Assembly (NCBI RefSeq): GCF_004138135.1
Contig: NZ_RYFD01000037.1
Span: 1 to 44,597 of the forward strand
Direction of reading: 5' to 3'
Length of the DNA stretch: 44,597 bases
From: Candidatus Oscillochloris fontis
GTDB lineage: Bacteria > Chloroflexota > Chloroflexia > Chloroflexales > Chloroflexaceae
The translations under genes and the position numbers were made by a program. Shown here in pieces: positions 2,707 through 39,321 of this stretch (its first letter is position 1; each line of letters starts with the position of its first letter). The notes beneath the pieces were generated by a model that did not search any database, was not told where the DNA came from, and saw only the letters and a list, made by a program, of their open reading frames with translations.

Positions 2707-3696
2707 ATGGGACACTCAGATTGGAGTGATGCCGCATTTTCCGCCCGCCAGACCCATCGCCGAGCAACCAATACCAGTGCCTTCACCTACGACGACTATG
2801 TGCGCACTACTGGCGCGGTCAAGGTTCACGACCAGATGAACCCCTACGGGGTCATTCGCGAGAGCCGCGACAGTGCGGCACACCCGGAGTCGTTGGCGAT
2901 TGCGGTCATCTTCGACGTAACCGGCTCGATGGGCAGTGTGCCACGGGTGATGCAGACCAAGTTGGGGGCGCTGATGCGTGTGCTGATCCAGCGCGGTTAC
3001 GTGGCGCATCCGCAGATCCTCTTTGGTGGCGTGGGCGATGCGACCTGCGACCAAGTTCCGCTCCAGATCGGCCAGTTTGAGTCGGGTTTGGAGATGGACG
3101 AGGATCTGGGCAAGATCTACATTGAGGGCGGCGGTGGCGGGCAGGTCTACGAGAGCTACGAACTGGCGATGTACTTTATGGCGCGCCACACCTCGATTGA
3201 CTGCTACGAGAAGCGCGGCGTTAAGGGCTACCTCTTCACGATTGGCGATGAGAAGCCGTATGCCAAGATCAAGCACAAGATTGTCCAGGATCTCATGGGT
3301 GATCGCATCGAGCGCGATCTGCCACTCCCAGAGGTGATCGCCGAACTACAGGAGCGCTACAACCACTTCCACATTGTCCCCACCAACACCAGCCATGGGC
3401 GCGACCCGGCCATTCAGGCGCACTGGCGCGGGTTGCTGGGCGAGCGGGTGCTGATGCTGGATGACGAGAGCGCCGTCTGTGAGACCATCGCGCTCACGAT
3501 TGGGCTCTGCGAAGGCACCGTGGATGATCTGGCGGTGGGTGCCGGCGACCTGGTGGATGCCGGGTGTGACCCCAATGCGGCCAGCACCGCCGTGCGGGCA
3601 CTCACCCCCTACGCGGTCAGTCTGCCCCCGGTGGCGCACAGCGCGGTGGGGCTGTTGCCCCCGGCGGGATCATCCGGCGATGCCGGACGGTTATAA
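2707..3696 (+). CDS. von Willebrand factor A (vWA) domain protein
   Basis: 329 residues, soluble. The vWA core starts near residue 62 (SLAIAVIFDVTGSMG). The metal-ion-dependent adhesion site is D70-x-T72-x-S74, a variant of DxSxS that keeps all three ligating side chains. A Gly-rich stretch IEGGGGGQVYESYE (about 140-153) follows in the place of the second MIDAS loop. The C-terminal third (after about 290) is low in complexity. GAGGAGGAG lies just before the ATG and supports this start. The gene lies between the J-domain/pseudokinase gene and the PurA-like gene. vWA proteins in bacteria usually scaffold partner proteins or ATPases; no MoxR-type ATPase is adjacent here, so the partner is unknown. 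Confidence 0.85.
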   Translation: MGHSDWSDAAFSARQTHRRATNTSAFTYDDYVRTTGAVKVHDQMNPYGVIRESRDSAAHPESLAIAVIFDVTGSMGSVPRVMQTKLGALMRVLIQRGYVAHPQILFGGVGDATCDQVPLQIGQFESGLEMDEDLGKIYIEGGGGGQVYESYELAMYFMARHTSIDCYEKRGVKGYLFTIGDEKPYAKIKHKIVQDLMGDRIERDLPLPEVIAELQERYNHFHIVPTNTSHGRDPAIQAHWRGLLGERVLMLDDESAVCETIALTIGLCEGTVDDLAVGAGDLVDAGCDPNAASTAVRALTPYAVSLPPVAHSAVGLLPPAGSSGDAGRL

Positions 3697-3700
3697 GATA

Positions 3701-3741
3701 TTGGCGTGCTGTTGGCGGCTACGCCGCTAACAGCACGCCAA
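3701..3741. repeat. 19-bp hairpin between vWA and PurA-like genes
   Basis: TTGGCGTGCTGTTGGCGGC (3701-3719) pairs with 3723-3741 with one G-T wobble and a TAC loop. No T-run follows, so it is more likely an mRNA-stability or repeat-derived hairpin than a strong terminator. Confidence 0.7.
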
Positions 3742-3760
3742 AAGATACAAGGCTACGCTG

Positions 3761-5080
3761 ATGCAGCAAACCTTTCTCACCGTCGATCTCGGCTTTGGCG
3801 ATGCGGGTAAAGGCTCGGTAGTAGATTTCCTCACCCGCACCTACGATGCACACACAGTCGTGCGCTTTAATGGGGGTGCCCAAGCGGGGCACCGCGTGGT
3901 GACACCGGATGGGCTGGAGCATGTCTTCTCGCAGTTTGGGGCGGGTGCGTTGGCGGGGGCGGCCACGCATCTCTCGCGCTTCATGATCATGGAGCCACTG
4001 GCCATGCTGGCCGAAGCGGCGCATTTGCAGAACCTGGGGGTTGCCGATCCCTTCGCGCAGACCAGCATAGATGTGGGGGCGCTGGTGATCACCCCGTTTG
4101 GGCGGGCGATCAACCGGCTGCGCGAGTTGGCGCGTGGGGCGGGGCGGCACGGGAGCTGCGGGATTGGTGTGGGCGAGACCGTAGCCGATTCACTTGCGCA
4201 TCCTGATCTGGCGCTGCGGGCGGGCGATCTGGTTGATGCGGATCGACTCTATGCGAAACTCGCCGCGATTCGCGAGCTGAATCTGGCCAAACTGGCCCCG
4301 ATCCATGCCGATCTGCCCGCGAACCCACAGAGTGCTGCTGAATTAGAACTGCTGCTCGATCCCGACTGGGCCGACTGGTTATTGCCCGCCTATATCGAGT
4401 TTACCCAACAGGCGCGGCTGGTGCAAGCCGCGCACCTGCACCACATCCTCAAACGCCCCGGCACGGTAATCTTCGAGGCTGCCCAGGGCGTACTCTTAGA
4501 CGAGTGGCGCGGCTTCCACCCGCATACCACATGGAGTACCACAACTCTACATAACGCTGAATGTCTTTTAGCTGAAGCGGATTATTGCGGACACGTTGTA
4601 CGGCTTGGGATCACCCGCGCCTACACCACCCGCCACGGCGCTGGCCCGCTGCCCAGCGAGGACGCCGCACTGAGTCGGGCGCTGCCCGATGCTTGCAATC
4701 AGTTGCATCTGTGGCAACAATACTTTCGTAGCGGTTGGCTCGATTTGGTTTTATTGCGCTACGCCAAAGAGATCGTCGGCCACCTCGACGGCGTGGCCGT
4801 CACATGCCTGGATCGCCTCGCCGATCTCGACACACTCCAGATCTGCCCGCACTACCAGCTAGGGCCATTACAGGTAGATCGGATTATTTCCGCATCAGAC
4901 CCGCAAGATCTGAGCTACCAGAGCCAGATTACGGCGGCGCTGAATACCTGCCAGCCCGTATTGGAGCCACTTGATGGCCCAGAGGCGTTGCTCCAACGGA
5001 TTGCGAACACGCTAGGAATCCCCGTGTGGCTCACATCCTATGGCCCCCGCGCCAGTGATAAAATCTGGCGACTGAAGTGA
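3761..5080 (+). CDS. Divergent adenylosuccinate synthetase-like protein (PurA paralog)
   Basis: 439 residues, about the length of PurA (roughly 430), alignable end to end by motif. The GTP-binding/catalytic loop reads GFGDAGKGS (11-19): the catalytic Asp (D14) and Lys (K17) are kept, but the canonical GDEGKGK Glu and last Lys are Ala and Ser. The NAGHT loop is QAGHRVV with the catalytic His at 44. Later PurA-like segments are EAAQGVLLDEW, YTTRHGAGPLPSE and a C-terminal SYGPRASDKIW. The changes and the company of a J-domain/pseudokinase and a vWA gene argue against a housekeeping PurA; a related ligase acting on a purine-like substrate is my inference. The phage enzyme PurZ replaces the catalytic Asp, which is kept here, so I do not call it PurZ. 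The last 18 codons recur at 5806-5859. Confidence 0.78.
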   Translation: MQQTFLTVDLGFGDAGKGSVVDFLTRTYDAHTVVRFNGGAQAGHRVVTPDGLEHVFSQFGAGALAGAATHLSRFMIMEPLAMLAEAAHLQNLGVADPFAQTSIDVGALVITPFGRAINRLRELARGAGRHGSCGIGVGETVADSLAHPDLALRAGDLVDADRLYAKLAAIRELNLAKLAPIHADLPANPQSAAELELLLDPDWADWLLPAYIEFTQQARLVQAAHLHHILKRPGTVIFEAAQGVLLDEWRGFHPHTTWSTTTLHNAECLLAEADYCGHVVRLGITRAYTTRHGAGPLPSEDAALSRALPDACNQLHLWQQYFRSGWLDLVLLRYAKEIVGHLDGVAVTCLDRLADLDTLQICPHYQLGPLQVDRIISASDPQDLSYQSQITAALNTCQPVLEPLDGPEALLQRIANTLGIPVWLTSYGPRASDKIWRLK

Positions 5081-8160: not shown

Positions 8161-8492
8161 TTCTTCTTGACGCAAAGGCGCAAAGACGCAAAGGTTTTAT
8201 TGAAGGCTCTGCGCCTCTGCGTCTTTGCGTCAAAACCTAGAAGCTAGGTAACTGTTCACACTTGGGGTAAAGGAAGCTTCTTCTTGACGCAAAGGCGCAA
8301 AGACGCAAAGGTTTTATTGGAGGCTTTGCGCCTTTGCGTCTTTGCGTCAAAACCTAGAAGCTAGGTAACTGTTCACACTTGGGGTAAAGGAAGCTTCTTC
8401 TTGACGCAAAGGCGCAAAGGTTTTATTGAAGGCTTTGCGCCTCTGCGTCTTTGCGTCAAAACCTAGAAGCTAGGAGAAGTGTGAACTGTTAC
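8161..8492. mobile_element. Tandem array of three 117-bp units of the GTAA miniature element
   Basis: Units begin at 8161, 8278 and 8395, an exact 117-base period; the third lacks about 12 bases. Each unit holds an imperfect palindrome (TTGACGCAAAGGCGCAAAGA ... TCTTTGCGTCAA) and a linker GTAACTGTTCACACTTGGGG. The right end is AAGTGTGAACTGTTAC (8477-8492). The left terminal repeat is missing. The right end supplies the TAA stop codon of lysA. No coding sequence is present. Confidence 0.85.
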
Positions 8493-18302: not shown

Positions 18303-18379
18303 GGATGTTGTTGCTCACGCGAAGGCGCGAAAGGTTTTGAGAATCTTTGCGTCTTCGTGCCTTTGCGTCAAACCGTGAT
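18303..18379. repeat. Core copy of the CGCAAAGG palindrome
   Basis: ACGCGAAGGCGCGAAAGGTTTT and its inverted partner CTTTGCGTCTTCGTGCCTTTG lie between convergent genes. Terminal GTAAC repeats are missing. The right arm (TTTGACGCAAAGG read leftward) supplies the TGA stop of the ACT-domain gene. Confidence 0.7.
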
Positions 18380-19319: not shown

Positions 19320-19410
19320 TGGCGGGGAGAGAGAGATTCGAACTCTCGAGGGCTTTTTAGACCCTACTCGTTTTCGAGACGAGCACGTTCAACCGCTCCG
19401 TCATCTCCCC
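19320..19410 (-). tRNA. tRNA-Ser (anticodon CGA)
   Basis: Acceptor GGGGAGA pairs with TCTCCCC. The anticodon stem CTCGT/ACGAG has the loop CTCGAAA (anticodon CGA). A long variable arm (AGGGTCTAAAAAGCCCT) marks a class II tRNA. T-loop TTCGAAT, discriminator G and encoded CCA at 19320-19322. Confidence 0.93.
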
Positions 19411-19425
19411 GCGATTGCAGGCGCT

Positions 19426-19454
19426 ATTATACACAGGTTGCGCCCTTGCTGCAA
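19426..19454 (-). promoter_or_regulatory. Promoter of tRNA-Ser
   Basis: On the minus strand TTGCAG (19454-19449) and a perfect TATAAT (19431-19426) with 17-base spacing, 16 bases before the tRNA. Confidence 0.75.
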
Positions 19455-19468
19455 ATCTGAACCTTTGC

Positions 19469-19604
19469 GTAACTGTTCACACTTGGGGTAAAAGAAATCT
19501 CGTATTGACGCAAAGGCGCAAGGACGCAAAGGTTTTGTTGCAGGCTTTGCGCCTTGGCGTCTTTGCGTCAAAACCGGAATGCTAGGAGAAGTGTGAACTC
19601 TTAC
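19469..19604. mobile_element. Complete GTAA miniature element with 8-bp target duplication
   Basis: 136 bp. The left end GTAACTGTTCACACTT (19469-19484) matches the inverted right end AAGTGTGAACTCTTAC (19589-19604) at 14 of 16 positions. The inside is the CGCAAAGG palindrome around TTTTGTTGCAGG. The 8 bases before it, ACCTTTGC (19461-19468), are repeated exactly after it (19605-19612), as expected for a target-site duplication. GTAA ends and an 8-bp duplication are features of IS66-family transposition. It has no coding capacity. Confidence 0.85.
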
Positions 19605-19677
19605 ACCTTTGCGCTACCCTCAAACGGTATATCATAGGGGAGTTACGATCTTCCATACCAATACCAATGGGTACGCT

Positions 19678-22164: not shown

Positions 22165-22250
22165 TTTTTTGACGCCAAGGCGCAAAGACGCAAAGGTTTT
22201 ACTTAGGGTCTATCTTGAAGGCTTTGCGCCTTGGCGTCTTTGCGTCCATC
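22165..22250. repeat. Core copy of the CGCAAAGG palindrome
   Basis: TTGACGCCAAGGCGCAAAGA and the inverted TTTGCGCCTTGGCGTCTTTG around about 30 bases, between the convergent helicase and WD40 genes. It lacks the GTAAC ends. As a strong hairpin near both stop codons it could help end both transcripts. Confidence 0.75.
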
Positions 22251-36313: not shown

Positions 36314-36443
36314 GTGACTGTTCACACTTGGGGTAAAAGAAACCTCTCATTGACGCCAGGGTGTCAAGACGCAAAGGTTTTGTTGAAGGCTTTGCGCCTT
36401 GCACCTTGGCGTCAAAACCGGGATGTGGGGAGAGTGGCCTTAC
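36314..36443. mobile_element. Degenerate GTAA miniature element at the dsbB 3' end
   Basis: The left end GTGACTGTTCACACTTGGGG (36314-36333) is clear; the right end (GAGTGGCCTTAC, to 36443) keeps only the outer GTAA type bases. The core has CGCAAAGG arms with small changes. No 8-bp duplication is found (GGTTGCAA before, ACCAGATC after). The TAA stop of dsbB is read from the right end. Confidence 0.7.
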
Positions 36444-37902: not shown

Positions 37903-39051
37903 ATGGCTAATCCATCACTCTACGATATGAATCTATCCGATCTGGAGGCGCTGTTACGTGCCTGGGGCCAGCCGGCCTTCCGTACACGCCAGATCTATCG
38001 CCAACTCTATCTCAATCTTGCCGCTGATCCCGCTGCGATGACCGATCTGCCCCAGGCGTTGCGCGAGCGCCTCGCCCATGAGTCCACACTGAACCCGCTG
38101 CATCTCGTGCGTTCCCAAGTTTCCGCCGATGGCCTCACCCGCAAGGCGCTCTTCGCCCTTCCCGATGGGGTGCAGATCGAGACGGTGCTGATGATCTATG
38201 CTGATCGTGCCACAGTCTGTGTCTCGACTCAGGCCGGGTGTGCGATGGGCTGCTCGTTCTGTGCCACCGCCACCTTGGACTTGCGGCGCAACCTGACGGC
38301 GGGCGAGATGGTGGCGCAAGTGCTCTGGGCCAGCCGCGAGGTGCGCAACCTTGCATCTCAGCCCGCATCAACTACCAATCCGGGGCGCTCTAGTGCTGAG
38401 GACGCAACATGGTGGGGCGAGTCCCATGCGCTCCGGCGGCCTTTGGAGCGGGTCTCCAATCTGGTCTTTATGGGTATGGGCGAGCCATTCGCCAACTATG
38501 ATCGCTGGTGGGAGGCGGTGCAGCGCCTCCACGACCCCCTCGGCTTCAATATGGGCGCCCGCAGCATGACGGTCTCCACGGTCGGGTTGGTGCCGGGTAT
38601 CCTGCGCCTCGCCGATGCGGGCCTGCCGATCAATCTGGCCATCTCGCTGCATGCCCCCGATGATGCGCTGCGTAACGAGTTGGTGCCGATCAATACGCGC
38701 TATCCGATCAAGGAGATCTTGGCGGCGGCGCATACCTATGTTGAAAAGACCGGGCGGCGGGTCTCGTTTGAGTATGTCTTGATCCAGGGGCGTAACGATC
38801 ACCCGCACCAAGCGCTGGCGCTGGCCAAGTTGCTGCGTCATGAATCCTTGATCTGCCACGTCAATCTCATCCCCTGGAATCCGCTGCCCGGCTCACCCTT
38901 GGCACGTTCGGATCTCCAACGGGTGCGCGCCTTCCAACAGGTGCTCGTGGATTATGGCCTTGCCTGTACCGTGCGTGTCGAGCGCGGGGTAGAGATTGCG
39001 GCGGCCTGTGGCCAACTGGCTGGAGGAGGTAACTGTTCACACTTGGGGTAA
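37903..39051 (+). CDS. rlmN: 23S rRNA (adenine-2503-C2) methyltransferase RlmN
   Basis: 382 residues, radical-SAM methyl synthase that methylates A2503 of 23S rRNA and A37 of some tRNAs. The Fe-S cluster motif is CAMGCSFC (C113, C117, C120); [11 protein letters not shown] and the C-terminal CTVRVERG and [10 protein letters not shown] (C369, the methyl-carrying Cys position) follow. An insertion of about 30 residues (about 150-182) precedes FMGMGEP and is not usual. After C369 only 13 residues remain; the last six (NCSHLG) and the stop are encoded by a miniature element inserted at 39029. Without the element the frame would end GGGA-stop, overlapping the next gene's ATG. Confidence 0.94.
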
Positions 39052-39306
39052 AAGAAACCTCTGGTTGACGCAAAGGCGCAAAGACGCAAAGGTTTTGATG
39101 AGGGCATATCCTTGAAGTCTTTGCGTCAAAACCGGGATGCGAGGTAGCTGTTCACACTTGGGGTAAAGGAAGCTTCTGATTGACGCAAAGGCGCAAAGAC
39201 GCAAAGGTTTTGTTGCAGGCTTTGCGCCTTGGCGTCTTTGCGTCAAAATCGGAATGCTAGGAGAACTGTGAACAGTTACGATGCGAGGAGAAGGGTGAAC
39301 AGTTAC
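39029..39306. mobile_element. Composite GTAA miniature element with 8-bp target duplication
   Basis: 278 bp. Left end GTAACTGTTCACACTT, right end AAGGGTGAACAGTTAC (15 of 16 match inverted). The inside holds a second left-type end (about 39146-39165), two CGCAAAGG palindromes and a second right-type end finishing at 39279, so it is two elements nested or joined. TGGAGGAG (39021-39028) before it is repeated exactly at 39307-39314. It separates rlmN from the downstream lipoprotein gene and encodes the rlmN end. Confidence 0.88.
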
Positions 39307-39321
39307 TGGAGGAGGGGCTTG

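Follow-up and report, generated by a model that had tools for sequence, protein, structure and literature searches.

The window, by which we mean the whole stretch of 44,597 nucleotides analyzed, contains a tRNA-Ser (CGA) gene on the reverse strand (19320-19410), preceded by a predicted promoter of the sigma70 type with the sequence TTGCAG-N17-TATAAT (19426-19454, reverse strand) that serves this gene. Fourteen bases separate the -35 box of this promoter from the left tip of a 136-bp miniature element located on the forward strand (19469-19604), which is formed by a left (L) end, a CGCAAAGG palindrome and a right (R) end. The element is bordered on both sides by exact 8-bp target duplications ACCTTTGC (19461-19468 and 19605-19612, no strand assigned), in the same positions where the preliminary description had placed them. 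The hairpin of this copy, computed as single-stranded DNA, reached a z value of -7.9. Here and in all that follows, promoters are predicted from sequence.

A second copy is bordered by exact duplications TGGAGGAG (39021-39028 and 39307-39314, no strand assigned) and had been described as one element occupying positions 39029-39306. The flanking repeats were found as claimed but the copy is not a single element, as it contains a complete inner copy. The left part of the outer element (39029-39143, forward strand) is followed by an inner 136-bp element (39144-39279, forward strand), inserted in the same orientation at the equivalent of consensus base 117, and the 19-bp right end of the outer element lies at 39288-39306 (forward strand). 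The inner copy displays its own duplication, GATGCGAG, whose left copy is part of the outer element (39136-39143) and whose right copy follows the inner one (39280-39287; no strand assigned in either case); the window thus holds three exact 8-bp duplications. The 16-base inverted repeats attributed to both copies are present but are not perfect, since the right end has 2 mismatches in the first copy and 1 in the second. The last codons and the stop of an rlmN-like gene (37903-39051, forward strand) are supplied by the inserted element. Two more structures were found on the forward strand: a head-to-tail array (~8161-8492) formed by a 5'-truncated unit, a 117-bp unit from 8248 and a terminal copy at 8365-8492, and a decayed copy (~36314-36443) in which no duplication was recognized by eye and whose 3' boundary was also judged by eye. 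The 16-mer end, with up to 3 mismatches, matched 10 times in the window vs. 0.07 expected. The window also has CGCAAAGG palindromes with no transposon end nearby, at 18345-18361 and 22180-22238.

The draft genome assembly (4.46 Mb, 139 contigs) contained 176 forward and 169 reverse ends with up to 2 mismatches, vs. 1 and 1 matches for a reversed-pattern control, which corresponds to roughly 170 copies. Members of the family have inverted repeats of about 16-19 bp and no transposase gene inside, and the main size class, of 136 bp, accounted for 27 of 57 complete copies. The 38 copies whose length is exactly 136 bp comprised 29 distinct sequences and 14 identical pairs, with a mean identity of 0.916, thus some copies look recent. 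Target duplications were evaluated in an 825-kb sample formed by the window and by parts of contigs C1, C6, C15, C34, and C92, overlaps being counted; these contigs were picked for their listed ends and not by their flanks, and C15 and C92 partly for close ends, which may have enriched it in nests. The 8-bp duplication was exact in 15 of its 34 complete elements and had at most 1 mismatch in 22, as compared to 1 and 4, respectively, of the 1122 control pairings of left flanks with the right flanks of other elements; in the same 34 elements exact 7-bp repeats were never found and exact 9-bp repeats occurred twice. The claim that the duplications go beyond chance is therefore well founded. Similar proportions were exact (19/31) or within 1 mismatch (23/31) in a further 31 complete elements. 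Duplications accompany about two thirds of the complete copies, but 12 of the first 34 elements and 8 of the further 31 had none within 1 mismatch; among them are decayed or tandem copies, and in two elements 9-bp repeats take the place of the 8-bp duplication.

Comparison with sister genomes showed the element to be missing at the three sites tested (rlmN, tRNA-Ser, and ssb). The end of rlmN was free of it in all five sister genomes, with the same gene downstream in four of them, the stretch available from the fifth ending too soon; in several of these genomes the gap was filled by other sequence, so that this is an element-free locus rather than a base-by-base empty site, and the sister flanks at the sites tested were too diverged for such an empty site. 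The tRNA-Ser match was full-length in four of the five genomes (29 bases in the fifth), and all four full-length loci presented TTGC(G/A)C-N17-TATAAT, with no end of the element up to 400 bases away. For ssb, the promoter was present and element-free in four orthologues, the best match in the fifth genome (66% identity) being located in another context. One might regard these repeats as static intergenic palindromes similar to REP or BIME sequences, with flanking repeats due to chance and no transposition at all, and the inner palindrome does occur without these ends in relatives. We give this reading almost no credence in view of the element-free sister sites, exact 8-bp duplications far above the control, the nested insertions, and an insertion sequence (IS) with the same ends, presented below.

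GTAA ends and 8-bp duplications had been pointed out as traits of the IS66 family, and it had been proposed that an IS66-type transposase encoded elsewhere moves this non-autonomous family. Both traits were found, in agreement with the literature: ISDge4 of Deinococcus geothermalis (IS66 family, ISBst12 group) has the end GTAACTGCTCAGCA and makes an 8-bp repeat upon moving (PMC12898284), and IS66 of Frankia casuarinae CcI3 gives 8-bp direct repeats at new insertions, IS66 repeats being reported to start with GTAAGCG (PMC11946415). The term "elsewhere" holds in a strong sense, as searches of the draft genome of the organism itself (G000, 139 contigs) for an IS66 transposase gave nothing, either with PF03050 (0 matches at E <= 0.001) or with the related transposase P0001 (0 matches at E <= 1e-5). 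A cognate transposase in the same genome does not define a MITE, but bears on whether the element is active on its own. A scan of the genome collection with the exact 20-base L end retrieved 14 stretches. An element of 1439 bp with L end, transposase frame and R end lies at positions 3493-4931 of locus L051, from a MAG labeled Oscillochloris sp. RM1_1_4 (G010), which its kinship label places in another genus of the same family; the labels of relatives assign the organism studied to Chloroflexaceae. The frame, of 461 residues from stop to stop, matched PF03050 (DDE_Tnp_IS66) with an E value of 8e-48 and remained just under the cut-off for zf-IS66 (26.7 vs. 27.3 bits). Its ends agree with the consensus of the miniature elements at 27 of 28 positions (L) and 22 of 24 positions (R), and its flanks showed no clear 8-bp duplication. 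Five contigs of one MAG (L039, L040, L044, L047, and L048) all break at some 50-54 bases into one and the same L end, resembling what the collapse of a multi-copy IS during assembly would produce.

More distant transposases, ~29-33% identical, were found at eight loci, where two elements had clear GTAAAAGGTCAGG ends with exact 8-bp duplications, one had GTAACTGCCTA ends without duplication, and five gave no ends. The two GTAAAAGGTCAGG-ended IS66 elements belong to relatives (L124, 197-1809, and L134, 1351-2926) and their transposases are about 29% identical. Related transposases appeared in 57 plasmid records, all below 60% identity and at about 28-30% among the matches listed, and a search of plasmids with the element DNA gave no match. 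A transposase of another family could move the elements, their resemblance to IS66 ends being convergent, and the lack of IS66 transposase matches in the genome itself would fit with this; we nevertheless consider it highly unlikely, given the agreement of the L051 ends and the 8-bp duplications. Furthermore, the complete IS66 copy (L033/L051) shows the promoter spacing described below, as do L ends lying by transposase pieces 70-75% identical to its own (L129 and L132). The two IS66 elements with about 29% identical transposases have different ends. The parent was most likely an ISBst12-type IS66 element, lost from this genome or hidden in an assembly gap, and the miniature elements would be moved by a transposase of the L051 type. 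Each miniature element most probably consists of IS66-type (ISBst12-like) ends, of ~28 bp on the left and 24 bp on the right, with an intergenic CGCAAAGG palindrome replacing the transposase gene between them; an IS66-type transposase acting in trans would join these ends to new sites, making 8-bp duplications. The proposal of a non-autonomous family is supported by the GTAA ends, the duplications, the three element-free sites and a same-ended IS66-type element in a related MAG, whose enzyme would be the one that moves the copies.

The inner palindrome was also found without these ends in relatives (for example, 199 matches vs. one L-end match in G023). In other genomes the same ends surrounded, as judged by eye, a different palindrome of the GGGAGCGAGGGC type (L041, L045, L049, and others), which is dispersed alone as well (126 matches vs. 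15 L ends in G018). The same ends have thus apparently taken up two or more distinct palindromes of intergenic origin. Among the matches listed, no printed description of the CGCAAAGG word was found, and papers containing GACGCAAAG looked unrelated by title. The occurrence of the palindrome without these ends in relatives, the nesting and the promoter-anchored target choice are additions to the preliminary description.

For 33 non-self elements bearing duplications (up to 2 mismatches), the flanks were aligned in the orientation of the element, and a motif became apparent on the left side only; its reverse complement reads TTGACN, 17 bases, and TATAAT, that is, the sigma70 consensus. Promoters were scored with the textbook pattern TTGACA-N16..18-TATAAT, at least 8 of the 12 positions matching, which was not fitted to these data. 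Self-like flanks were dropped (L flanks from 51 to 42 and R flanks from 47 to 43 in the first sample; L flanks from 40 to 35 in the held-out set). The 825-kb sample contributed 42 non-self L flanks, of which 11 had a promoter at offset 14, the four other offsets given showing 0 to 1. The held-out set (38 loci chosen by the L end alone, three L ends coming from one locus, L231, and with L255 and L256 excluded as previously seen) had offset 14 in 15 of 35 L flanks vs. a mean of 0.25 at 40 other offsets. L flanks from other genomes behaved likewise (13/38 vs. a mean of 0.65 elsewhere), offsets 13 and 15 being also somewhat raised (6 and 5, respectively), and the complete IS66 element (L033/L051) was among the flanks that fit the 14-base spacing. 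For the 77 L flanks of the genome itself, offset 14 occurred in 26, offset 13 in five and offset 15 in four, with a mean of 0.62 at 40 others; flanks that were short, did not start with GT or were near-duplicates, plus one L049 end, were dropped from the analysis covering these flanks and those of other genomes. With a loose rule, accepting any of three forms, 41 of these 77 flanks were positive, shifted controls predicting 3.0. Roughly half of the copies thus showed no promoter, and the rlmN copy of the window, located at the gene end, gave a weak promoter match (6/12). R flanks presented a small excess in the first sample (offset 14 in 4/43); in the second, the full score reached at most 1/31, and TTG occurred at offset 14 in 3/31 vs. 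a mean of 0.42. A narrow, oriented spacing between the L tip and promoter-like sequence is thus statistically established in three data sets.

On these statistics, target choice is anchored on promoters, many copies having the L end directed towards the promoter and exactly 14 bases between its tip and the -35 box. Random insertion, followed by selection retaining harmless copies just upstream of promoters, could account for copies of the window being intergenic or at a gene end, and the core promoter is left intact by insertions near -50. The peak is, however, narrow (offset 14 in 26/77) and mainly restricted to the L side, and tolerance alone would not choose one base and one orientation, so that this explanation is very improbable. 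We hold with high confidence that the miniature element is of IS66 origin and that the 14-base spacing rule applies, both taken jointly and leaving the polymerase step aside.

The -10 box provided information on what is recognized. Of 30 target TTG sites outside palindromes, 12 had a box matching at 5 or more of 6 positions, vs. 1.0% of 1256 nearby TTG sites; a match at 4 or more of 6 was found in 13 of 15 TTGAC targets outside palindromes vs. 6 of 44 nearby TTGAC words (Fisher P = 5e-7). The transposase itself might read the -35-like word (TTGAC or TTG) with no participation of RNA polymerase, as suggested by the self-insertion site and by some palindrome-adjacent insertions, which display TTGAC at the right spacing and no -10 box. 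This is possible though somewhat improbable, since the difference in -10 boxes between targets and nearby TTGAC words would not be anticipated from it and the targets also included sites where a good -10 accompanied a poor -35. Positioning by polymerase, in which a sigma70 RNA polymerase-promoter complex would place the strand-transfer complex, is in our opinion the likeliest cause of the spacing, although it may prove wrong as easily as right. Downstream of the 11 hits of the first sample, in the direction of the promoter, there were nine ORFs of at least 90 codons (a count without control), one tRNA gene (the tRNA-Ser of the window, whose copy at 19469-19604 is one of the hits) and, in one case, nothing. 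Eight of the nine ORF starts were compared to Pfam, with SSB, IF-3, YaeQ, PemK, and a Sec_GG protein above the cut-off; among the other three, one gave a sub-threshold match and two gave none. Considered as a whole, the chances are evenly balanced that a clade of IS66-type transposases in Chloroflexales carries out promoter-guided transposition, placing the duplication around positions -49 to -42 relative to the start site, and that the palindrome-enclosing elements target themselves and build arrays.

The target preferences of bacterial insertion sequences are generally regarded as weak, and we know of no example of fixed-distance promoter targeting by such short mobile hairpin elements. No published promoter-targeting insertion sequence was found among the matches listed, judged by titles and abstract starts, and the literature on repeats of Oscillochloris or Chloroflexi and on IS66 MITEs gave nothing beyond the papers cited here. 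In eukaryotes, Ty1, Ty3, TRE5-A, and Tf1 integrate at a set distance from the transcription start; these are retroelements guided by eukaryotic factors, whereas the present case is a bacterial DDE-type system with sigma70-like promoters. The target choice is the new part, accompanied by a probable source of transposase and a putative guiding mechanism. If correct, it would be a bacterial counterpart of eukaryotic transcription-guided integration, it would turn these repeats into natural promoter markers, it would help to explain the tolerance of many copies, genes and core promoters being spared, and it would suggest an origin for tandem hairpin arrays. The oriented promoter spacing in the discovery, held-out and other-genome sets would permit direct testing in vitro. 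As regards known systems, ISDge4 is alike in its GTAACTG-type end, the 8-bp repeat in a new insertion and a single transposase gene, but it was inserted inside a gene, with no promoter rule mentioned in the available part of the source, and the present copies are gene-less and mostly of 136 bp (PMC12898284); the same source describes IS66 transposition as insufficiently characterized (PMC12898284). IS66 of F. casuarinae CcI3 shares the 8-bp repeats and differs by its insertion in pyrF, again with no promoter rule in the portion of text available (PMC11946415). Bacterial MITEs are likewise short and gene-less, with terminal inverted repeats, and are presumed to depend on a transposase acting in trans (PMC3189936, PMC10969869), whereas MITEPsy1 is marked "IS5?" and has 4-nt duplications, and the term IS66 does not appear in the available text of the MITE review (PMC10969869). 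REP sequences and GTAG and CGTC palindromes resemble the present repeats in their intergenic palindrome core; they differ in that the present ones have transposon ends and duplications (PMC3733652).

Insertion of the elements into each other followed the same spacing. Among element-like flanks, 12 L tips followed base 117 with both elements pointing the same way, a number inflated because several loci were picked for close ends, and other positions were scattered with one tip each; some tips in this tally were labeled both L and R. In the 825-kb sample alone, base 117 was followed by an L tip six times, at four loci, and other positions once each, and a whole-genome pattern search for the self-insertion junction gave 28 matches with up to 2 mismatches, 7 of them exact. 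Base 117 lies at GTCAA plus 6 plus 8 bases from the palindrome edge, with the same spacing as at promoters, and the site has the -35-like word and lacks the -10 box. Since the captured palindrome ends in GTCAA at promoter-like spacing, each copy is itself a target. Eight nests had exact inner duplications (seven tabulated and one recognized by eye in L159), and the inner duplication varied with the outer copy (GATGCGAG, GAGGCTAG, GAGACTAG, GATGTTAG, and GATGCAAG), thus indicating that at least several nests are independent; a further nest had 1 mismatch (C92:57438) and another was cut by a contig end (C118). Nested insertion at base 117 creates a 27-bp direct repeat, whose collapse would leave head-to-tail units as in the array of the window. 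Arrays may then derive from nesting, which was directly observed, followed by a presumed repeat collapse; the right inner copy was missing in the arrays at C123:8248, C92:57554, and C46:48892.

Some variant structures were also seen in the genome (G000). A 1.2-kb end pair on C57 was rejected as an autonomous copy, as it resolves into a pair of distinct small copies separated by unrelated stretches of sequence. Three copies had 146-154 bp (C34:60713, C6:2954, and C34:221389), two of them with CACGAT-type ends and 9-bp repeats. A structure of about 92 bp, from C120:25210 onward (L191), seemingly consists of two inverted left ends with AATACTAG on both sides, as judged by eye. In the 136-bp copies, the halves mix different variants when inspected by eye, which suggests recombination between copies.
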